DNA from: Opitutia bacterium
GTDB lineage: Bacteria > Verrucomicrobiota > Verrucomicrobiia > Opitutales > Opitutaceae
Reading direction: 5' to 3'
Length of the DNA: 64,000 nucleotides
Assembly: GCA_016187945.1 (NCBI GenBank)
Contig: JACPIT010000003.1
Span: 62,001-126,000, forward strand
The position numbers were made by a program, and so were the translations under genes. Each line of letters begins with the position of its first letter. Positions within the stretch are counted from its first letter, which is position 1. The notes below the pieces were generated by a model. That model was not told the DNA's origin, did not search any database, and was given only the letters and a program-made list of their open reading frames with translations. Of this stretch, positions 1 to 8,855 are shown in pieces.

Positions 1-1508
1 CCTCGATTCGGGCGCGGTTGCTGGTGTGGATCGGACTGCTCGTCGGAGCGATGTTGCTCGGATTCGGCTTCACCGCGTTCCAACTCTTCCGCGCGAACGA
101 GCTGAAGCGCATCGACGCGGAACTCGAGCCACGCGTCGCCGCGATCGCGCAAACCTTCCGCGGCGCGCCGCCCCCCGGAGGATTCGGTCCGGGACCACAC
201 CGCACCAACAGCGGCCCGACGGCCGATCGCGGCCCCGGCTTCGATGGCGACGGCCCGCCGCCCGAACCGCCGGAGTTCAGCCGCCCGGCGAACGACACGC
301 GCGGCGGCAAAGCTCCGCCGCCGCAACCGGGCGCGCGCGAGATTCGCTTCGGCGCGGCGATCGCGGCGCTGTTCGATGAATCGGCGGCCGACGGATTTTT
401 CTATGCGATGTGGAAGCGTGAGAGCGGTCTCGTCAAACACTCCGCCAACGCGCCGGCGCGCCTCGCGCAGCCACTCGCGGGCGGCACGCAGCCGGGCATC
501 AAATACCTGACCGCGGACGGCGCGCGCCTCGCCTACTACTACACCGAGCGCGGCGACTGCGCCCTCGTGGGCGTGAGCCTCGCTGCGGTCGCACGCGCGG
601 AGCGCAGCTTCGTGTGGTGGCTCGGCGGGGCTGGCGCGCTCGTGCTCGGCGTCGGCCTCGGCGGCGGCGGGTGGCTCGTCACGCGCGCGCTGCGTCCGAT
701 CGGCGAGATCGGCGCCGCGGCGCGCCGCATCGCCGCCGGCAATCTCCACGAGCGCATCCAGCCGAGCGATCGCGACAGCGAACTCGGCCAACTCGCCGAC
801 GTGCTGAACAACACCTTCGCGCGTCTCGAAACGTCGTTTGCCGAGCAGCGACAGTTCACCGCCGACGCTTCGCACGAGGTGCGCACGCCGCTGACGGTGA
901 TCATCTCCGAAGCGCAGGCGTCGCTCGCGCGCCCGCGCACCGGGCAGGAATACCGCGAGACGCTCGAAGTCTGCCTCGAAGCCGCCCAGGACATGCGCCG
1001 GCTCGCGGAATCGCTCCTCGATCTCGCCCGCCTCGATTCCGGCCAGGAAGCGAACCGCCGCAGCGCGTGCGATCTCGCCGAGATCGCGGATGGCTGCGTC
1101 GCGCTGGTCCGGCCGCTGGCCGAAGCGCGCAGCGTCACCATCGCCGCCGAACTCGCGTCCGCTCCGCTCACCGGCGATCCGGCGCGCTTGCGCCAGGTGC
1201 TGGTCAACCTCCTCGACAATGCGATTTACTACAACTACGAGCGCGGCGCGGTCACGGTGCGCACGCGGCGGGAGGACGGCGTCGCGGTTGTCGAAGTCGC
1301 GGACACGGGCTCCGGCATCGCACCCGACGACGTGCCGCACATCTTCCAGCGCTTCTATCGCGCGAACCGCGCCCGCACGCAGACGGAACGCCGCGCCGGC
1401 CTCGGCCTCGCGATCGTGCACTCGATCGTCGAAGCGCACGGCGGCACAATCGCCGTGAAAAGTCAGCTCGGTCTGGGCACGACGTTCACGGTGCGCCTGC
1501 CGGTTTGA
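1..1508 (+). CDS. Sensor histidine kinase, 5' end outside the window
   Basis: Inner-membrane sensor kinase of a two-component system. The frame stays open to the window edge and reads SIRARLLVWIGLL, a typical kinase N-terminus, so the start lies upstream and the TTG at 18 is not a convincing start. Counting from 18: a first membrane segment (residues about 1-25), a periplasmic region with a Pro/Gly-rich stretch (about 50-105), a second membrane segment (about 200-220), HAMP, a HisKA box DASHEVRTPL with the phospho-accepting His at about residue 286, and HATPase_c with N box NLLDNAIYY and G boxes DTGSGIAP and GLGLAI. The partner regulator is probably just upstream, out of view. The ligand cannot be read from the sequence. 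It ends two bases before a palindromic repeat element. Confidence 0.9.
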   Translation, partial: SIRARLLVWIGLLVGAMLLGFGFTAFQLFRANELKRIDAELEPRVAAIAQTFRGAPPPGGFGPGPHRTNSGPTADRGPGFDGDGPPPEPPEFSRPANDTRGGKAPPPQPGAREIRFGAAIAALFDESAADGFFYAMWKRESGLVKHSANAPARLAQPLAGGTQPGIKYLTADGARLAYYYTERGDCALVGVSLAAVARAERSFVWWLGGAGALVLGVGLGGGGWLVTRALRPIGEIGAAARRIAAGNLHERIQPSDRDSELGQLADVLNNTFARLETSFAEQRQFTADASHEVRTPLTVIISEAQASLARPRTGQEYRETLEVCLEAAQDMRRLAESLLDLARLDSGQEANRRSACDLAEIADGCVALVRPLAEARSVTIAAELASAPLTGDPARLRQVLVNLLDNAIYYNYERGAVTVRTRREDGVAVVEVADTGSGIAPDDVPHIFQRFYRANRARTQTERRAGLGLAIVHSIVEAHGGTIAVKSQLGLGTTFTVRLPV

Positions 1509-1509
1509 T

Positions 1510-1681
1510 CCTAAATTCCGCAGAAAACTCTCCACGGATTACACCGATTACGCGGATGGAATTATTTCAGGAAAACTTTTTCTCCATTTTCGTTCGCCTG
1601 CGGGTGAAGCGGCTCCGCTGCCGAAGTCTTGAACTATCCGTGCCCTCCGTGAAATCCGTGGTTTCAACTGCTGATTTTAGG
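1510..1681. repeat. Palindromic interspersed repeat, CCTAAATT family, copy 1
   Basis: A 172-bp element whose ends are inverted: CCTAAATTCCGCAG at the left and CTGCTGATTTTAGG at the right. Inside lies a second inverted pair, CCACGGAT and ATCCGTGG. A related copy with the same terminal design is at 14954-15122. It has no transposase, so it looks like a MITE-like or REP-like element. Its right part is read through by the small minus-strand gene that ends at 1567. Confidence 0.65.
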
Positions 1682-1833
1682 TTGATCGGCGGCGCTCGCC
1701 GGCGTCTTTTGCCCGGCGCGACGAGCCACACCGCCAACGCGAGCACGATGACCGCCGCCAGCACGCAGGCGATGCCCGCCAGCACGAGCAGCGCGCAAGG
1801 CTCGATCCATCGGTCGAGTTCGAGCGGCGACAT
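1567..1833 (-). CDS. Small single-pass membrane protein, last gene of the SPFH/ATPase unit
   Basis: An 88-residue ORF starting at ATG 1833, five bases after the stop of the P-type ATPase gene, so probably cotranscribed. Residues about 13-40 (CALLVLAGIACVLAAVIVLA and on) form one hydrophobic helix, followed by a basic stretch GKRRRR, which predicts a cytoplasmic C-terminus. Residues from about 51 onward are encoded by the palindromic repeat at 1510-1681, so the native C-terminus may have been replaced by the repeat. Small membrane subunits do accompany some P1B ATPases (FixS/CcoS next to FixI), but I see no sequence motif that proves that relationship. Function unknown. Confidence 0.5.
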   Translation of the reverse strand: MSPLELDRWIEPCALLVLAGIACVLAAVIVLALAVWLVAPGKRRRRAPPINLKSAVETTDFTEGTDSSRLRQRSRFTRRRTKMEKKFS

Positions 1834-1838
1834 CCGAT

Positions 1839-3797
1839 TCAGGGGACGCCCGCCGCGGCGGTGTCGAAGCGCAGCAGGCGCGCGCTGTTGAAGATGACGA
1901 AAAACGCGCTGAATTCGTGCAACACCGCCGCGACAATCGGGCTCACGACGCCGAGCGCGGAGAGCAGCACGAAGAGCCCGATGAAGCCGCATCCGCAGAG
2001 GAGATTCTGGTTGATGAGACGCAACGTGCGGTCGCTCAGCTCGAGGAAACGCGGCAGATGCCGCAGATCGCTGCCCATCAGTGCGACATCGGCGGTCTTC
2101 ACCGCGACATCGCTGCCGAGCGCGCCCATCGCGACGCCGAGATCGCCGGCGGCGAGCGCGGGCGCGTCGTTCACGCCATCGCCGATCACGAGCACGCGCC
2201 GGCCGGCGGCCTTGAGTTCGCGGACAACGGCGAGTTTCCGTTCGGGCAGGCAGGACGCTTCATAGCGGGTGATGCCGGCCGCGCGCGCGATCGTCGCAGC
2301 CGTGGCGGCGTTGTCGCCGGTCAGCATCACGAACTCCGTGACGCCGAGTCGCCGCAACGCGGCGAGCGCGGCGAGCGCTTCCGGCCGCAGGCTGTCGGCG
2401 AGCAGGATGGTGCCGACGAGCCGGCCCTTGCGCGCGACAAACAGCGCCGACGTGGAAGAGTCGGGGGTGGATTCCTCCTCCGCGTCGACGCCGTGCTCGT
2501 GCAGCCAACCACGCCGGCCGACGAGCAAATCGCCCCCGCGCACGCCGCGTCCGGCGGATTCGTGCAGCGTTTCCACCGGAGCAAACTCGATGTCGCGAGC
2601 GAACGCCGCTGCGACGACTGCGCGCGCCACCGGATGGGTCGAACGCGCTTCGAGGCTCGCAGCGAGGCGGAGCAGTTCATCCTCGGAAATTCCGGCCGCC
2701 GGTCGCAGCGCGACGACCCGCAGGCAGCCGGTCGTCAGCGTGCCAGTTTTGTCGAACACGACGGTGTCGATCCCGCGCGCCGTCTCGAAATGCGCGGAGC
2801 CTTTCACGAGCACGCCGAGACGCGACGCGACCGCGAGCGCCGCCACCATCGCCGAAGGCGAGGCGAGCACGAACGCGCACGGTGTCGCGACGATGATGAC
2901 CGAGATCGCACGCGCGGCGTCGCCGGTGAAAAACAGCACGAGGCCCGCGAGGATCAGCACGAGCGGCAGGTAGTAGCGCGTATAGCGGTCGATCAGCCGC
3001 ATCACCGGAGCGCGGGAACTCTTCGCCTCCTCGACGATGTCGGTCACACGGCCGATCACCGTGTCGCGTCCGGTGCGGCGCACGAGCAGCGTGACCGCGC
3101 CGGTGAGATTCGTCGTGCCGGCATAGACCTCGGAGCCTGGTCCGGCCTCGACCGGCAGCGACTCGCCTGTGATCGACGCCTGATCGATCGTCGTGCGGCC
3201 GGCCACGATCGCGCCGTCCGCCGGCACGGTGTCGCCGGGGAAAAGCGCGACGCGATCGCCGACGCGCAGCTCGCCGGCGTCCACAAGTTCGCCCTCGGCC
3301 GGCCCGTGCGCAACGGCGGCGGACACGGAAAGCTGCTCCGCGGTCGGCGGCGGCAGGCGTCGGGCTTTCACGCGCGAGAGACGCAGCAGCGAGTTGACCG
3401 CCTCCTCCACGCCGACCGTGGTGTGCTCTTCGAGCATTTGTCCGACGATCAGGATCGCCGCGACGATGGTGCCGGTCGCGTATTCACCGGTGGCAAAACA
3501 CGCCAGCACGGCGAGCGCGACGAACTGATCCATGTAGTATTTCGTCGCCTCGAACCCGTCGGCTTTGAGCGAGGCGAGGCTGTCGAACAGAACCGGCAGC
3601 GCCGCGAGGGCGAGCCCCGCCATCGCCCAGAGGGAAAACACGTCGCGGTGATCCGGGCGCAGCCAACTGGCGGCGTGGCTGAGCGCGAGGAACACGAGGC
3701 CGACCGCGACCAGCGCGAGGCGCAAATGGCGCGCAGAGAAACGCGGCGTGGCTGAAGCGCCGGCCTGATCGGCGGGAGATGCACTCGCTGGATTCAT
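1839..3797 (-). CDS. P1B-type (heavy-metal) cation-transporting ATPase
   Basis: A 652-residue inner-membrane metal pump. Several N-terminal helices are followed by the actuator motif TGES, the phosphorylation motif DKTGTLT, the P1B histidine motif as THPVAR, and the hinge GDGVNDAPAL. There is no N-terminal HMA metal-binding domain. The intramembrane metal site reads ATPCAFVLASP, giving TPC instead of CPC/CPH/SPC. The usual YN motif of the next helix is replaced by LLCGCGFIG, and the last helix carries HEFSAFFVIFN. Metal specificity therefore cannot be assigned to a standard P1B subgroup. The ATG at 3797 overlaps the stop of the HflK-like gene by 4 bp (ATGA), which argues for translational coupling. 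The same frame is open further upstream, but that part is a shadow of the HflK-like gene. Confidence 0.88.
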   Translation of the reverse strand: MNPASASPADQAGASATPRFSARHLRLALVAVGLVFLALSHAASWLRPDHRDVFSLWAMAGLALAALPVLFDSLASLKADGFEATKYYMDQFVALAVLACFATGEYATGTIVAAILIVGQMLEEHTTVGVEEAVNSLLRLSRVKARRLPPPTAEQLSVSAAVAHGPAEGELVDAGELRVGDRVALFPGDTVPADGAIVAGRTTIDQASITGESLPVEAGPGSEVYAGTTNLTGAVTLLVRRTGRDTVIGRVTDIVEEAKSSRAPVMRLIDRYTRYYLPLVLILAGLVLFFTGDAARAISVIIVATPCAFVLASPSAMVAALAVASRLGVLVKGSAHFETARGIDTVVFDKTGTLTTGCLRVVALRPAAGISEDELLRLAASLEARSTHPVARAVVAAAFARDIEFAPVETLHESAGRGVRGGDLLVGRRGWLHEHGVDAEEESTPDSSTSALFVARKGRLVGTILLADSLRPEALAALAALRRLGVTEFVMLTGDNAATAATIARAAGITRYEASCLPERKLAVVRELKAAGRRVLVIGDGVNDAPALAAGDLGVAMGALGSDVAVKTADVALMGSDLRHLPRFLELSDRTLRLINQNLLCGCGFIGLFVLLSALGVVSPIVAAVLHEFSAFFVIFNSARLLRFDTAAAGVP

Positions 3798-4813
3798 GGG
3801 TTTTCCGGGAGGCGCAGGGTGAGCCGGTCGCCGGCGGGGAGCACGGCGCGGGTCTTCACGCGGGCGAGCACGTCGCGCAGCGCATCGGCGCGCAGGTGCT
3901 CGACGACGAGCGCGGGCGCGTCGCGATACGCGGGCAGTAGCGCGACGAACGATGCGGCCTCCGCCTGCGCGCGGGCGGCGAGGCGTTGCGCGTCGGCATC
4001 GGCTTCGTGGCGGCGGCGGTAGGCTTCGCTCTGCGCCAGCGGCAGGGTTTGCGCGCGCTCGGTGCGCGCGTTTTCGACGAGAGTGCGCGCTTCGACCTGT
4101 GCGCTCGTCACCTCGGCGAAGGCCGCGGCGGCGGCTGTCGGCGGCGTGAGTTGCGTGACGTCGAACGAGAGCAACTCGACGCCGAGGCCGAGCCGATCGG
4201 AGCGGCGCTGGATTTCTTCGCGCACGCGCTGGCGAAAAGCTTCGAGACCCGGACCGAGCGCGTGGTCGATCGCCATCGTTGCGAGGGTCTGCGTCGCGGC
4301 GTCGAGGGCCGCGGCTTCGAGGAGAAGCGCGGCGGTTTCGGTGGTCGCCGCCTTCGCCGAGGCGAGCGGATCGGCGATGCGATAACGAAGACTGAAGCGC
4401 CCGCGCACGAGATTGGCGTCGCCGGTCAGCGTGTAGCCGTCGAAGACGGGATGCAGACCTTTCAGCGTGGCGCCGGGCTTCGTCGGTGCGGCCTCTTCCT
4501 CGGGGCTCCACGCGTGCAGCGCGAGTTCCTGCTGCGTGCGCACGGGGATTTTCACGACGCGATCGAACGGCGCCGGCAGAGCGAAAACGAGTCCCGGCGC
4601 GCGCACGCCGGGCTGAAGCGCACCGAGGCGGTAGACTAGGGCGACTTCGTGCGGCGCGACGCGCGTGAGGCCCGAGCCGAGGTAGAGCGCCACGAGGCCG
4701 GCGATGAGCCAGCGCAGAAGTGCGAGCGTCTGCGTGAACGCTCCGAGCAGCGCGTGGCCGGTGTCGGCTCGCGCGCCGTCGGTCGCGGCGGAAACAGTAG
4801 CGTCGTCGTTCAT
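3794..4813 (-). CDS. SPFH/Band 7 protein, HflK-like
   Basis: A 339-residue membrane-anchored SPFH protein. One N-terminal membrane helix (residues about 32-50) is followed by the Band 7 domain, with HEVALVYRLGALQPGVRAPG near its start and a family-typical RYRIADP segment. An Ala/Glu/Arg-rich stretch at about 230-290 is predicted coiled coil. HflK and HflC homologues form large cage-like hetero-oligomers around membrane proteases such as FtsH. No FtsH gene is nearby; the neighbours are an HflC-like gene (4-bp overlap), a P1B ATPase (4-bp overlap) and a third SPFH protein. This suggests a dedicated second SPFH complex and not the housekeeping HflKC. The symbol hflK is withheld for that reason. 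Confidence 0.82.
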   Translation of the reverse strand: MNDDATVSAATDGARADTGHALLGAFTQTLALLRWLIAGLVALYLGSGLTRVAPHEVALVYRLGALQPGVRAPGLVFALPAPFDRVVKIPVRTQQELALHAWSPEEEAAPTKPGATLKGLHPVFDGYTLTGDANLVRGRFSLRYRIADPLASAKAATTETAALLLEAAALDAATQTLATMAIDHALGPGLEAFRQRVREEIQRRSDRLGLGVELLSFDVTQLTPPTAAAAAFAEVTSAQVEARTLVENARTERAQTLPLAQSEAYRRRHEADADAQRLAARAQAEAASFVALLPAYRDAPALVVEHLRADALRDVLARVKTRAVLPAGDRLTLRLPENP

Positions 4814-5712
4814 GGGTTCGGCGTCGCGGCGGGGCTCTGCAACGCGGTGAACGGCGGCGTTGCGGTGTCGAGCACGAGCGTGGTGTTTTCCGTTACGCTC
4901 GCGCGCAGCGCTTCGAGTTCGCGCGTGAGTCGATAAAGATCGGGCGCCTGCGCGTGCGCGGCGGCGTAGGTGCGTGCGGCTTCGGCTTCGGCGCGGCCGC
5001 GGGTTTCCTCGGCGTAGCGCTGGGCGTCGGCGAGCAGCACGGTTTTTTCGGTATCGGCCTGCGTGCGGATTTCGGCGGCTTCGCGCCGGCCTTCGGCGCG
5101 GTAACGCGCGGCGTGCTGGGCGCGCTCGGCGCGCATGCGCTCGAAGACGAAGACCGTGTTCGCCTCGGGGAGCGCGATGCGGCGCAGGCCGACTTCCTCG
5201 ATCGCGATGCCGAAGGCGGCGAGCGCTTGCGGGCGGACGACTTCGCCCAGCTCTTTTTCAAGCGCCGGCAGTTTCACGCGCGCGGCGTCGGCATTCACGA
5301 GTTCGGCGAAATCGACTCGGCCGAGCAGCGTGTTGCGCGCGCTCGTGGCGAGGCTGTCGAGCTTGGCGGCGACGGCGTCGGGTGTGCCGGTGGATTGGAG
5401 GAACTTCAGCGGGTCGGCGATGCGCCACGCGAGATAGAGCGGCACGATGACGTTGCGTTTGTCGCGCGTGAGCGCCTCGGAGATGCGCGTCTCCTGAAAC
5501 GCGAGGCGCGTGTCGAAACGGTTGACCGTGTCGATCGGCCACGGCCACTTGCCATGCAGGCCCGGCGCGACGATCGTCGCCACCGGCGAACCGAAGCGCG
5601 TGAGCACGACGGCCTCGTGGCTGGCGACCTGGAAGCTGCACAGCGTGAATCCGAGCGCGGCGGCGACGGCGAGTGCGATGAGGACGCGAAAGAGAAGTTG
5701 GAGACGGGACAT
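4810..5712 (-). CDS. SPFH/Band 7 protein, HflC-like
   Basis: A 300-residue protein with one N-terminal membrane helix (about residues 7-25) and then the HflC-type start EAVVLTRFGSP, GLHGKWPWPIDTV and RRIALPEANTVFVFERMRAE, the last of these typical of HflC. A long charged helix at about 195-255 (RREAAEIRTQADTEKTVLL) is predicted coiled coil. It sits six bases after the stop of the large SPFH gene and overlaps the HflK-like gene by 4 bp. Expected to build a hetero-oligomeric membrane ring with its SPFH neighbours. Substrate and partner protease are unknown. Confidence 0.83.
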   Translation of the reverse strand: MSRLQLLFRVLIALAVAAALGFTLCSFQVASHEAVVLTRFGSPVATIVAPGLHGKWPWPIDTVNRFDTRLAFQETRISEALTRDKRNVIVPLYLAWRIADPLKFLQSTGTPDAVAAKLDSLATSARNTLLGRVDFAELVNADAARVKLPALEKELGEVVRPQALAAFGIAIEEVGLRRIALPEANTVFVFERMRAERAQHAARYRAEGRREAAEIRTQADTEKTVLLADAQRYAEETRGRAEAEAARTYAAAHAQAPDLYRLTRELEALRASVTENTTLVLDTATPPFTALQSPAATPNP

Positions 5713-5718
5713 GGCGGA

Positions 5719-7425
5719 TCAGGGTTTGGGCTCGAGCGAGGCGGCGGGCGCGGCGGCGGAGTCGAATCCGAGGAGAAGAGTGCGCCTCGCGGCTCCGGCG
5801 GGCACGAGGTGCAGCGCCCGCGCGCGAGCGAATGCGGTCTCGGTAGCCTCGGCACGGAGGCGGAAGGCGAAAAGCGTGCGGTGTTCGCGCCAGGTGTCGA
5901 GCGGAGCGAGGAAGCGCACGGTCTCGCCGGCGGCTTGCGCACGGCGCGCGATGGCGGCGGCGTCGGCGGCGGCGCGAAGGCGGGTCGCTTCGGTGCGTGC
6001 GGCGCCGAGCGTGTCGATCGCATGGCGGCGCGCCTCGTCGACGAGTGCGCTCCGCTCCTCCTCGGCGCTCACGACGTCCTGATACGCCGGAGCGACCGGC
6101 ACGGGCGGGTGCACGTCCTTGAGGCCGACGAAGACGATTTCCAATCCGAACCCGAGGCGGTCGCTGGCGGCTTGGAGACGCGCGTGGAGCTGCGCGGCGA
6201 GGGCGGCGCGCTCGGTGGTCATGAGCGAGAACGCGTCGTGCTCGGCGGCGAGGTCGATCAAGGCGCGCGAGCCGAGCGCGGTGAGCGCAGCGGCGGGATC
6301 GCTCGTGCGACGCAGGCTGGCGACGGCGTCGCGCACGCGGAAATGGATCGGCACGTTGACCGTGAGGAGTTCCTGGCCGTTGCCGACGAGGAGATTTTGT
6401 TCGCCCTCGAAATGCTTCTCCGCCCACAGCACCGGCCCGGCGAGATCGCGCTCGAAGCCGAGCGAAATCTCCCGCACGCGGGTCGGCACGGCGACGATGC
6501 GGCCCCATGGCCACGGCGCGTGGAAATGCAGCCCCGGCGGCAGCGCCTGCGGCTGAAATGCGCCGTTGACGATGGCGACGCCGGCGGCGTCCACCGGCAC
6601 GCGCGTCACCGCGGTGGAGAGCCACAGCCCGACGAGAAACAGCAGCGCGAGCGGCGCGGCGGCGGCGCGGGCGAGCTGCCACAGCCACGCGTCGGCGAGC
6701 CGCAGGCCGAAGTTTCGCTCGAGCGACGCGACGAGCGAGCGGAACGGCCCCGCCTCGCCGAACAGCGCCGGCAGCAGCACGCTGTCGCCGAATGCCGCCG
6801 GCGAGGCGGCGCGGAGTTGCGGCGGCTGGTAGAAGCGGAACAGCGCGCGCAGCGCCGCCTCGACGCCGAGCACGAGCACGACGCCGACGAACGCCCGCTC
6901 GGCGACGCCGATCCACGCCAGGCGAAAATAGAGCCAGGCCAGCAGCGCGCCGACGAGCACGGCGGCCGCGGCGCCGACGAGCCGGCCGAGCGGCGCGAGG
7001 CGCGCGAGCGCGGTGTGCGAGGTCTCGCGCAGCGCGTGGCTTGAGTAGGAGGCGAGGAAATAGCCGGCAAAGGTCACGACCGCGAACAGCGCCGCCGCGA
7101 GTTGCAGGCGGGCAGTCGTGGCGCCGAGCGCGAAGCCTGTGCGCGGCCACCACAGCCACCCGAGCACGGCGACGGCGAACGCGGCGACGAGCGCGGGACG
7201 GAGTTTCCAAGGCAGACGACGGGGCAGCGCGGCGGGGAGCGCGACGACCGCGGCCCACAGCGGCACCAGCGCGAACGCGCGGAAGACGCCGAGACCGGTG
7301 TCGCGCGCGAGCCAGGCGGCGAGCACGGCGACGCTGCCGAAGAGCGCGCTCCAGACAATCACCGCGGGATGGCGGATCTCGAGCGGCACGGCGGTGGCGG
7401 CGGTGATGGGCGAACAGTCGCTCAC
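5719..7425 (-). CDS. Multi-pass membrane protein fused to an SPFH/Band 7 domain
   Basis: A 568-residue protein. The N-terminal half (about residues 15-260) holds several hydrophobic helices, for example AVIVWSALFGSVAVLAAWLA, and the C-terminal half is a Band 7 domain (GVAIVNGAFQPQALPPGLHF, then RVREISLGFERDL and VNVPIHFRVRD) with an Ala/Arg/Glu coiled-coil tail. The start is placed at GTG 7425, which overlaps the stop of the SUMF1 gene (GTGA). The open frame continues upstream to 8550, but that part is a shadow of the SUMF1 gene. A Band 7 domain on a polytopic anchor is a less common architecture than the single-helix HflK/HflC type and may be the scaffold subunit of this complex. Confidence 0.8.
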   Translation of the reverse strand: MSDCSPITAATAVPLEIRHPAVIVWSALFGSVAVLAAWLARDTGLGVFRAFALVPLWAAVVALPAALPRRLPWKLRPALVAAFAVAVLGWLWWPRTGFALGATTARLQLAAALFAVVTFAGYFLASYSSHALRETSHTALARLAPLGRLVGAAAAVLVGALLAWLYFRLAWIGVAERAFVGVVLVLGVEAALRALFRFYQPPQLRAASPAAFGDSVLLPALFGEAGPFRSLVASLERNFGLRLADAWLWQLARAAAAPLALLFLVGLWLSTAVTRVPVDAAGVAIVNGAFQPQALPPGLHFHAPWPWGRIVAVPTRVREISLGFERDLAGPVLWAEKHFEGEQNLLVGNGQELLTVNVPIHFRVRDAVASLRRTSDPAAALTALGSRALIDLAAEHDAFSLMTTERAALAAQLHARLQAASDRLGFGLEIVFVGLKDVHPPVPVAPAYQDVVSAEEERSALVDEARRHAIDTLGAARTEATRLRAAADAAAIARRAQAAGETVRFLAPLDTWREHRTLFAFRLRAEATETAFARARALHLVPAGAARRTLLLGFDSAAAPAASLEPKP

Positions 7426-8855
7426 GTTTTTTTGCGACGAAGGAAAAACACGATGAGCCCGCCACTCAGCAGCGCGCCGAGACCGAAGCCGGCGGCCAGC
7501 GCGGCATCGGCGAACCAGGCGGACGGGCTGGCGACGGAAGCTGCGCCGCGCGGACGCAGCGGGACGCTCGCCGTGCGAGCGGCGGAGGCGGATGCGGCGG
7601 GCGGGGCGATCGGGACGCGCGGGTCGAGTTCGGCGGCGGTGTCGATGCTCGCGAGCAGCGCCGGGCCCATTTGCGACTCTGTGCTCGCGGAGCTGTCGGA
7701 GGTTTTCGGCAAGCGGATCGCTACGCGAAAACCGATGGTGGCCGACGCGGAAGCCGGCGGAGCGAAATCGCGCGCGGTGCTGCAGGTGGCGGCGAGAGCG
7801 TCGGCCCACGAACCGCCGCGCACGACTTTCGTCGCGACGAGCCTTGCACCGAACGGAATCGGGTCGGCGGTCGCGGCATCGGGGCCGTGGGGATTTTCGG
7901 CGGCGTCGCTCAGTCGGTCGTAGTCGGCGGCGAACCAATCGGCGACCCACTCGGCGACGTTGCCGGCCATGTCGAGCGGACCGAGATCGCTTTGGCCCGC
8001 GGGAAAACTGCCGACGGTGTGCGCCGCGCCGCCGGCGGCGACGAGCGCGGTAAATTCGTCGCTGGCGACGAAGGTGGCGAGCGTGGGATCGCTCTGCTGC
8101 CAGTTCGCGACCATGCCGTCGGCGGAAATTGCGAGCACTTGGTTCGTGGCGAGCGAGCGCGTGGCATCGAGCGCGGCGAAGGTGTCGGGCACGCGGGCGA
8201 CCGCGGTGTTGGCGGTGAAGTGCAATCGACTCGTGCGCGCGAGGACGCCGGCGGCGCAAACGCCGCGGTAATTGCAGCGCGAGGTGAGCGTGTCGCCGAC
8301 GAAGGTTGCGTCGGGATTCGCGCCCCAAGGGAACGCGGCGCCGCGCGTGCCGCGGGCGGCGTGCTCCCATTGCGCTTCGGTGGGCAGGGTGAAATTCCAA
8401 CCGGTGGCGGCGCTGCGCCACGCGCAGAAATCCTGCGCATCCTGCCAGGTGACGAACGTCACCGGCAGGCCCATCGTGCCGATCGGCGGCATGCCATAGG
8501 GCCAGTGCGGCGGCGGCGGGCGACCGGTGGCGTCGACGAACTCCAACCACTCGGCGTTCGTGACCTCGAAGCGGCCGATGGCGAACGCGTCGAGTTTCAC
8601 GGGGTGAAGGTGCGCGCCTTCGCCCATCGTGAACGAGCCGGCGGGCACGTAGTCCATGCCTTGCGGAATCGCGAGCGTGCGCGCGCCGTCGGCGACCGCG
8701 TAGGTCGCGCGCGCGACGGGATCGGGGACGAGTTCGCCGGTGGCGGCGATGGCGACGTAGCTCGACGCGTCGATCGCCGGCGCCGCGTGCGCGAGCGGAG
8801 CCGCGCCGAAAAACAGCGCGGCCAGGGCGCAGGGCGTGGAACGAGCGCGTGGCAT
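7422..8855 (-). CDS. Exported SUMF1/FGE-domain protein with C-terminal membrane anchor
   Basis: A 477-residue protein. It has a signal peptide (residues 1-24, LAHA cleavage region), a SUMF1 (formylglycine-generating-enzyme-like) domain at about 65-390 with signatures FTMGEGAH, RFEVTNAEWLEFV, LPTEAQWEHAARG, MAGNVAEWVADW, VVRGGSW and IGFRVA, and a C-terminal helix ending in RRKKT that anchors it in the inner membrane facing the periplasm. An extra segment of roughly 70 residues lies between RCNYRG and VGSFPAG, where classic family members are short. After GGSW the canonical first active-site Cys of copper-dependent FGE is absent (GGSWADALAATC), so a sulfatase-maturing activity is doubtful. It is the first gene of the SPFH/ATPase unit. 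No sulfatase is encoded nearby. Confidence 0.85.
   Translation of the reverse strand: MPRARSTPCALAALFFGAAPLAHAAPAIDASSYVAIAATGELVPDPVARATYAVADGARTLAIPQGMDYVPAGSFTMGEGAHLHPVKLDAFAIGRFEVTNAEWLEFVDATGRPPPPHWPYGMPPIGTMGLPVTFVTWQDAQDFCAWRSAATGWNFTLPTEAQWEHAARGTRGAAFPWGANPDATFVGDTLTSRCNYRGVCAAGVLARTSRLHFTANTAVARVPDTFAALDATRSLATNQVLAISADGMVANWQQSDPTLATFVASDEFTALVAAGGAAHTVGSFPAGQSDLGPLDMAGNVAEWVADWFAADYDRLSDAAENPHGPDAATADPIPFGARLVATKVVRGGSWADALAATCSTARDFAPPASASATIGFRVAIRLPKTSDSSASTESQMGPALLASIDTAAELDPRVPIAPPAASASAARTASVPLRPRGAASVASPSAWFADAALAAGFGLGALLSGGLIVFFLRRKKT

Follow-up and report, generated by a model that had tools for sequence, protein, structure and literature searches.

The window analysed here is a stretch of 64,000 nucleotides from an Opitutia bacterium (GenBank assembly GCA_016187945.1, contig JACPIT010000003.1, positions 62,001 to 126,000). 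Close to its start lies a cassette in which three SPFH-family genes are followed by a gene for a P1B-type metal-transporting ATPase. A first-pass annotation, made from the letters alone, had described a six-gene unit here; its gene positions, strand and overlaps were confirmed when the window coordinates were rechecked. In 5' to 3' order on the minus strand the genes are:

7422-8855, minus strand: SUMF1-domain protein, 477 amino acids (aa); Pfam FGE-sulfatase, 1.1e-37
5719-7425, minus strand: SPFH1, polytopic SPFH protein, 568 aa, GTG start; Pfam Band_7, 1.1e-15
4810-5712, minus strand: SPFH2, HflC-like, 300 aa; Pfam Band_7, 4.1e-21
3794-4813, minus strand: SPFH3, HflK-like, 339 aa; Pfam Band_7, 6e-18
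1839-3797, minus strand: P1B metal-transporting ATPase, 652 aa; Pfam E1-E2_ATPase, 1.9e-43, and Hydrolase, 1.1e-32
1567-1833, minus strand: small open reading frame (ORF) 3' of the pump, 88 codons, one hydrophobic stretch

Neighbouring genes overlap by 4 nt (SUMF1/SPFH1, SPFH2/SPFH3 and SPFH3/P1B) or are separated by 6 nt (SPFH1/SPFH2) and 5 nt (P1B/small ORF). The GC content of the five larger genes is 0.83-0.89 at the third and 0.50-0.61 at the second codon position, as expected of real genes. Thus five genes are solid in the window, and four of them, SPFH1, SPFH2, SPFH3 and P1B, make up the conserved unit.

Two peptide patterns, derived from an alignment of four SPFH1 sequences, were scanned against a genome collection of 84,980 species. 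They matched 47 stretches, 22 of which encode a relative of SPFH1, and all 22 come from Verrucomicrobiota lineages. With three loci added from relatives, 25 loci were compared; SPFH2, SPFH3 and P1B follow SPFH1 at 24, two of which lie on contigs that end within P1B (L031 and L049), and at the remaining locus (L034) the contig stops after SPFH1. A profile of the 25 SPFH1 proteins, some of whose rows come from the sampled genomes themselves, was then used to search 387 genomes of the phylum. Near-full-length SPFH1, counted by hand as a match reaching from profile position 94 or before to 545 or beyond, with shorter matches excluded, occurs at 80 places in 78 genomes. Inspection of all 80 gave 70 complete cassettes of the same order and strand, three cut by contig ends, and seven in which SPFH1 stands alone. 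The order is therefore conserved beyond chance, 70 of 80 places keeping SPFH2-SPFH3-P1B behind SPFH1. In an overlapping set of 102 loci, from which four duplicates (L053-L056) were removed, 87 are complete, six cut, four carry gene fusions, two are without a polytopic SPFH1, and three are of other kinds (L096 and L108 of genus g143, and L132). At two of the g143 loci the gene after the lone SPFH1 looks helicase-like by eye.

The same four genes travel outside the phylum. The tblastn search of 72,556 plasmids with two SPFH1 proteins gave weak matches in 17 and 10 records, eight of which were inspected. Six had been chosen as likely non-canonical, being annotated "protease modulator HflK" or not at all, and all six, from Paraburkholderia, Burkholderia ubonensis and four Rhizobium, carry the four genes in the same order. 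The other two, from Vibrio and Sinorhizobium, bear the name "FtsH protease activity modulator HflK"; they have an hflK-hflC pair and no pump.

At four loci (L065, L075, L100 and L123) a single reading frame of 947-993 aa encodes both a P1B ATPase and an SPFH domain; SPFH2 and one more SPFH gene come after it. The L065 protein, the one of the four tested by Pfam, has both the ATPase and the Band_7 domains. Such fusions argue for physical association of the pump with the SPFH domain. The four fusion genes are new, as is the clade of pumps with an altered metal site described below.

The six-gene unit of the first-pass annotation shrinks at both ends. Its core, the polytopic SPFH protein with an HflC/HflK-like pair and the P1B pump, is borne out by the conserved order and the fusions, and homologues of these genes are neighbours in the related genomes that have them. 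The SUMF1 gene adjoins the cassette at only one of 25 other loci (L031; tblastn, 1e-3) and at two of 102 in the larger set (the window and L031), so it was rejected as a core part; it is a local accessory outside the conserved unit. Its product has an N-terminal hydrophobic leader and a C-terminal hydrophobic stretch, and no NCBIfam model scores above cut-off. Formylglycine-generating enzymes have a catalytic Cys pair motif in the C-terminal part. The window protein has one Cys, in RGGSWADALAATCSTARD, and lacks the pair; judged by that motif it would not be a formylglycine-generating enzyme, a role the first-pass annotation had allowed. The small ORF has no Pfam family and no tblastn relative at 32 distinct loci (10 plus 25 searched, three shared). 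It was rejected as part of the cassette and is probably not a conserved component. A CCACGGATTTCACGGA-like element forms two inverted arms, one within the second half of this ORF (1646-1661) and one at 1532-1547, between the kinase described below and the pump; two matches in the window at up to three mismatches against 0.54 expected is a weak count by itself, since 10 of 100 shuffles reach two.

The pump belongs to the P1B ATPases. It carries DKTGT and passes the subfamily models TIGR01525 (509.3 bits against a cut-off of 346.25) and TIGR01512 (445.2 against 313.5); no HMA domain is among its Pfam matches. An alignment of 90 P1B sequences placed its metal-site motifs as follows:

2877-2885, minus strand: TPC of the membrane metal motif (TPCAFVLASP); C at the first position in the other clade
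1914-1919, minus strand: His-Glu (HEFSAFF) in the last membrane helix near the C-terminus; H followed by a residue other than E in the other clade

TPC is an XPC form of the membrane CPX/XPC motif. The P1B subclass that bears TPC is P1B-5. A review of P1B ATPases gives the X of XPC, in the portion available, as Cys, Ser or His only (PMC8456098). In the alignment, 25 of the 90 sequences have T, M, I, L or V before PC, with HE in all 24 whose C-terminal motif is readable. The remaining 65 have C in that place; in 60 of these the H precedes T, A, N, S, Q or V, and three are unreadable. The window group (hereafter the window clade, as against the CPC clade) is a single clade on the P1B tree (support 0.999); being monophyletic, its joint change to xPC and HE may represent one event rather than independent ones. 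The six plasmid pumps have CPC and HN. In the proteins of L112 and L114 both the second CPC Cys and the conserved His have been lost (CPV/CPI and QL/QV), and these two may no longer be metal pumps.

Of the SPFH proteins, SPFH2 scores above the cut-off of the NCBIfam hflC model TIGR01932 (144.3 bits against 134.4), whereas SPFH3 and SPFH1 fall below that of the hflK model TIGR01933 (109.6 and 76.4 against 159.4). The AlphaFold2 model of SPFH1 (mean predicted local distance difference test, pLDDT, 80.1; predicted template modelling score, pTM, 0.47) shows in order seven long helices, the SPFH domain and a long helix. The seven helices look membrane-spanning in the model and, assuming seven spans and a cytoplasmic N-terminus, the SPFH domain would be periplasmic as in HflK/C. 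In the PDB, the SPFH part most closely resembles HflK/C, stomatin and prohibitin; the membrane part (residues 1-279) has no significant PDB match. A cation diffusion facilitator (CDF) zinc-transporter fold was considered for this part. In Foldseek some YiiP/ZnT chains reached probabilities of 0.69-0.99, but with E above 0.5 and template modelling scores (TM-scores) of 0.27-0.48, and other YiiP chains 0.13-0.38. Profile comparison with 11 CDF sequences gave a probability of 0.3%, and neither Pfam nor PDB provided a sequence link. The fold is thus unsupported by profile comparison and a lead at most. The window genome has five Band_7 matches, three in the cassette and two on different contigs, so a separate HflK/HflC pair is not seen there.

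Past the pump end of the cassette lie two further genes:

18-1508, plus strand: sensor histidine kinase, facing the cassette; Pfam HATPase_c, 1.8e-30
C5:61341-61994: response regulator, just beyond the start of the window

A kinase 46% identical to that of the window (tblastn) lies near the L039 cassette. Kinase and response regulator stand between the pump and an intradiol dioxygenase gene (C5:60276-61127, or L029:8277-9128), the sole Dioxygenase_C match of the window genome, 2.7 kb past the stop codon of the pump. The dioxygenase gene adjoins a second SUMF1 gene (C5:58871-60217, or L029:6872-8218). One of five families occurs near the cassette at 18 of 27 window-clade loci, several of which are closely related and hence represent fewer independent cases:

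Intradiol dioxygenase: L033, L034, L035, L036, L038, L039 and the window's own genome (beyond the window start)
PhoX-like protein: L023, L051, L052, L057
FmdA-type protein: L021, L022
Amidase_3: L040, L041, L042, L045
SUMF1: the window and L031

Pfam was applied to five dioxygenases (L033, L034, L035, L038 and L029), two PhoX-like proteins (L051 and L057), the FmdA protein of L021 and the amidase of L040; the other members are tblastn matches to these. Downstream labels of dioxygenase at L032, L035, L036, L037 and L057 probably reflect Ig-like parts of the query, as was shown for L032, and were left uncounted. In eight genomes searched for Dioxygenase_C, two of six genes are at a cassette (G000, the window genome, and G315). 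A whole-genome PhoX search found the family in one of eight genomes and overlooked the L057 copy in G263; counts of this kind are therefore minimum values. The window-genome dioxygenase, the second SUMF1 protein and the L031 SUMF1 protein (L031:8535-9944) end in a Ser/Thr-rich linker, a Gly run, a hydrophobic stretch and Arg. These tails resemble a C-terminal sorting signal; no NCBIfam CTERM model matched them at E 0.01.

Zinc-uptake genes recur as well. A ZnuA-family gene with ABC ATPase and permease follows the pump at five of 27 window-clade loci, and zinc-uptake genes precede the cassette on the Paraburkholderia plasmid and at L087, where a CobW-type GTPase gene accompanies them. This recurrence of zinc-uptake and exported-enzyme genes beside the cassette is also new. 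In the CPC clade an ABC ATPase is next after the pump on the same strand at 42 of 62 loci, against none of 25 in the window clade, and an ABC-2 permease gene precedes SPFH1 at 16 of 62 against none of 25. At L059, L067, L072 and other CPC-clade loci the pump is followed by an exporter-like set: an ABC ATPase, an ABC-2 permease (about 470 aa) and a further protein (about 530 aa), which at L059 has no Pfam match. As this set follows the pump only in the CPC clade, it was rejected as part of the window's unit. An anti-phage role was also rejected, PADLOC giving no match for the five larger window proteins of the region.

The operon kind seems to have a published counterpart. The first-pass annotation knew of no named system of this composition, a claim not borne out, since the PA2439-PA2434 cluster of Pseudomonas aeruginosa is similar; this operon is published, and its function is only partly known. 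In a znuA mutant, PA2434, PA2435 (HmtA) and PA2437-PA2439, of the HflC/HflK family, rise 5.6- to 14.4-fold (PMC4542158). The proteins of the cluster also rise under zinc depletion in a proteomics preprint whose text claims significance for PA2438 and PA2439 and whose table, despite that claim, gives p = 0.184 and 0.065 for PA2439 (PMC11761036). In an electrophoretic mobility shift assay the PA2439 promoter was shifted by Zur. According to reviews, cells that overexpress HmtA become hypersensitive to zinc and copper and their intracellular metal rises (PMC10393844, PMC8456098). Among the SPFH proteins of P. aeruginosa, a 2026 survey reports an operon of three SPFH genes with a patchy distribution, probably spread by horizontal transfer, whose deletion lowers biofilm by about 20% and attenuates virulence in Galleria (PMC13086221); its PaFlo5-7 are probably PA2437-PA2439. 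In Pseudomonas, an operon that looks like another version of the window's cassette is already known to respond to zinc shortage.

On this evidence the cassette has about an even chance of encoding an SPFH-caged metal pump that supplies zinc, or a related metal, to the cell envelope, as a variant of a widespread operon kind. That the four genes travel together through distantly related bacteria points to a pump working within a protein cage or next to one. The three SPFH proteins would assemble in the inner membrane into an HflK/C-type cage that faces the periplasm; the pump would be enclosed by this cage or lie against it, and the polytopic part of SPFH1 would hold the pump in place. Metal would then pass into, or leave, an enclosed portion of the periplasm. 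The neighbours and the Pseudomonas data would place the family in zinc-limitation physiology, and window-clade pumps, with their xPC and HE site, may provide the envelope, and exported enzymes whose genes lie close by, with zinc or a divalent metal like it. We infer the direction, the metal and the cage. For the family as a whole zinc is the most probable metal, and in the window clade it is likeliest because five loci with the same site lie directly before ZnuABC-type genes.

Several points weigh against a zinc-supplying caged pump. Near the window itself lie an intradiol dioxygenase gene, rather than a zinc-uptake gene, and an MntH-type Nramp gene (L029:4671-6035; 649.7 bits against a cut-off of 430), 4-5 kb beyond the window start; no zinc-uptake gene was seen within 10 kb past that start. 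(The gene after the MntH-type gene looks universal-stress-like by eye.) By a crude leader-peptide score, leader-like N-termini are not enriched upstream of window-clade cassettes at any of three thresholds (14/24 against 121/240 background genes; 13 against 107; 9 against 83), and such enrichment was dropped as a candidate. Linkage is also imperfect: SPFH1 stands alone in all seven sampled genomes of genus g143 (L096, L108, L133-L137), and L132 has the SPFH trio but lacks a pump downstream of it. The fusion genes group by themselves in a deep branch of the P1B tree (support 1.0), which makes them distant relatives and not recent rearrangements. Homology to the Pseudomonas proteins is putative, drawn from published gene names and order. 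Zur control in Pseudomonas is itself uncertain: the predicted Zur site is weak (E 0.11; PMC4542158), and a review has Zur binding uptake promoters except that of hmtA (PMC10393844). In addition, the PaFlo5-7 deletion phenotypes are subtle (PMC13086221), and HmtA is reported as an importer, opposite to classical P1B export (PMC10393844, PMC8456098). Nor does zinc repress hmtA mRNA.

That the pump is instead an importer of the HmtA type, carrying zinc or copper from periplasm to cytoplasm while the trio only stabilises it or concentrates periplasmic metal, is unlikely, even though the overexpression phenotypes, the adjoining zinc-uptake genes and the induction in the znuA mutant all speak for it. 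The direction of HmtA was deduced from those phenotypes, and the review calls for further confirmation of so unusual a direction (PMC10393844); other P1B pumps are mostly exporters (PMC8456098), and the unrepressed hmtA mRNA is a further difficulty. Control of protein quality, with the trio modulating FtsH as HflK/C does, governing the turnover of the pump or of exported proteins, and the pump a mere client, would account for the hflC score of SPFH2, for the match of the SPFH fold to HflK/C-FtsH complexes and for the share of the genome's Band_7 matches held by the cassette. General FtsH modulators would not be expected to be fused or strictly linked to a P1B pump, and the two canonical hflK-hflC loci inspected have none; we regard this account as quite improbable.

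Intradiol dioxygenases and PhoX-like proteins are iron enzymes. Since dioxygenase, PhoX-like and MntH-type genes are neighbours in the window clade, iron or manganese is possible there, and the xPC and HE site could move Fe2+ or Mn2+ for exported iron enzymes; dioxygenase or PhoX-like genes lie near 11 of 27 window-clade loci. Against this variant, five loci with the same site stand directly before ZnuABC-type genes, and the PIB-4 pump sCoaT, whose site is thought to be SPC with HEGxT, answers to Zn2+ and Cd2+ (PMC8880997); overall we hold it to be a poor prospect. Chance co-location of passengers with no functional link could draw on the patchy distribution, near-full-length SPFH1 being found in three of 95 genomes of relatives, the window's own included, and in none of 12 other genomes of its genus. 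It is already contradicted by conservation, with the order kept across classes and in Proteobacteria and the genes fused, and is highly improbable.

Within the reading of a caged pump for metal supply, a bolder form is possible, though we hold it only tentatively: the HflK/C-type cage would surround a P-type metal pump, not a protease, and its periplasmic chamber would concentrate metal and load exported client enzymes, the window clade having re-tooled the site (xPC and HE) and swapping its clients. The clients would be the intradiol dioxygenase, the PhoX-like protein, the FmdA-type amidase, the Amidase_3 protein and the SUMF1 protein. The earlier suggestion of metal delivery to an exported metalloprotein is kept alive by the enzyme neighbours of the window clade; the SUMF1 protein, which it had included, lies outside the unit.

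A metal pump of known chemistry as a strict partner of SPFH proteins, present in two phyla and in some genomes fused to an SPFH domain, makes the function of an SPFH cage testable. In the literature searched, from which subscription papers were mostly absent, no paper was found that joins HflK, HflC or SPFH proteins with a P-type ATPase in connection with Verrucomicrobia, operons or band 7 proteins, and none that describes the cassette as a conserved machine, and among the matches listed HmtA and SPFH occur together in no paper. The words "ATPase", "P-type" and "HmtA" are absent from the available text of the 2026 survey (PMC13086221), and "ATPase" from that of a 2009 survey that sorted prokaryotic SPFH proteins into 12 subfamilies (PMC2636767).

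The cassette shares features with several known systems. Like E. coli HflK/HflC-FtsH it has the SPFH fold, a protein that passes the hflC model (SPFH2) and an expected periplasmic SPFH domain; unlike it, the cassette has three SPFH genes, of which one encodes a polytopic protein, and its linkage is to a P1B pump and not to hfq/hflX. As in SPFH-NfeD operons such as QmcA-YbbJ (PMC2636767), an SPFH gene is joined to a membrane partner, but the partner is a P-type ATPase and no NfeD match was found by Pfam among the window proteins scanned. The pump resembles PIB-4 (sCoaT) in the absence of the first Cys of CPC, the HE in the last helix and the absence of HMA, and differs in having T, M, I, L or V in place of Ser and HE[FLGT][SG]A in place of HEGxT; the window pump itself has TPC with HEFSA, which is neither the CPC nor the PIB-4 signature. 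The closest likeness is to PA2439-PA2434, where HflK-like, HflC-like and HflC-family proteins are likewise followed by a P1B ATPase, whereas PA2436 intervenes in Pseudomonas and no SUMF1 gene is present in the gene rows available. The window has the same composition, three SPFH genes and then a P1B ATPase in one direction, and by composition and order its cassette looks like a Verrucomicrobiota variant of an operon of the hmtA kind. The comparison also matters for HmtA, puzzling as a P-type pump credited with metal import, whose SPFH neighbours are noted in the zinc studies and, in their available text, not treated as its partners.

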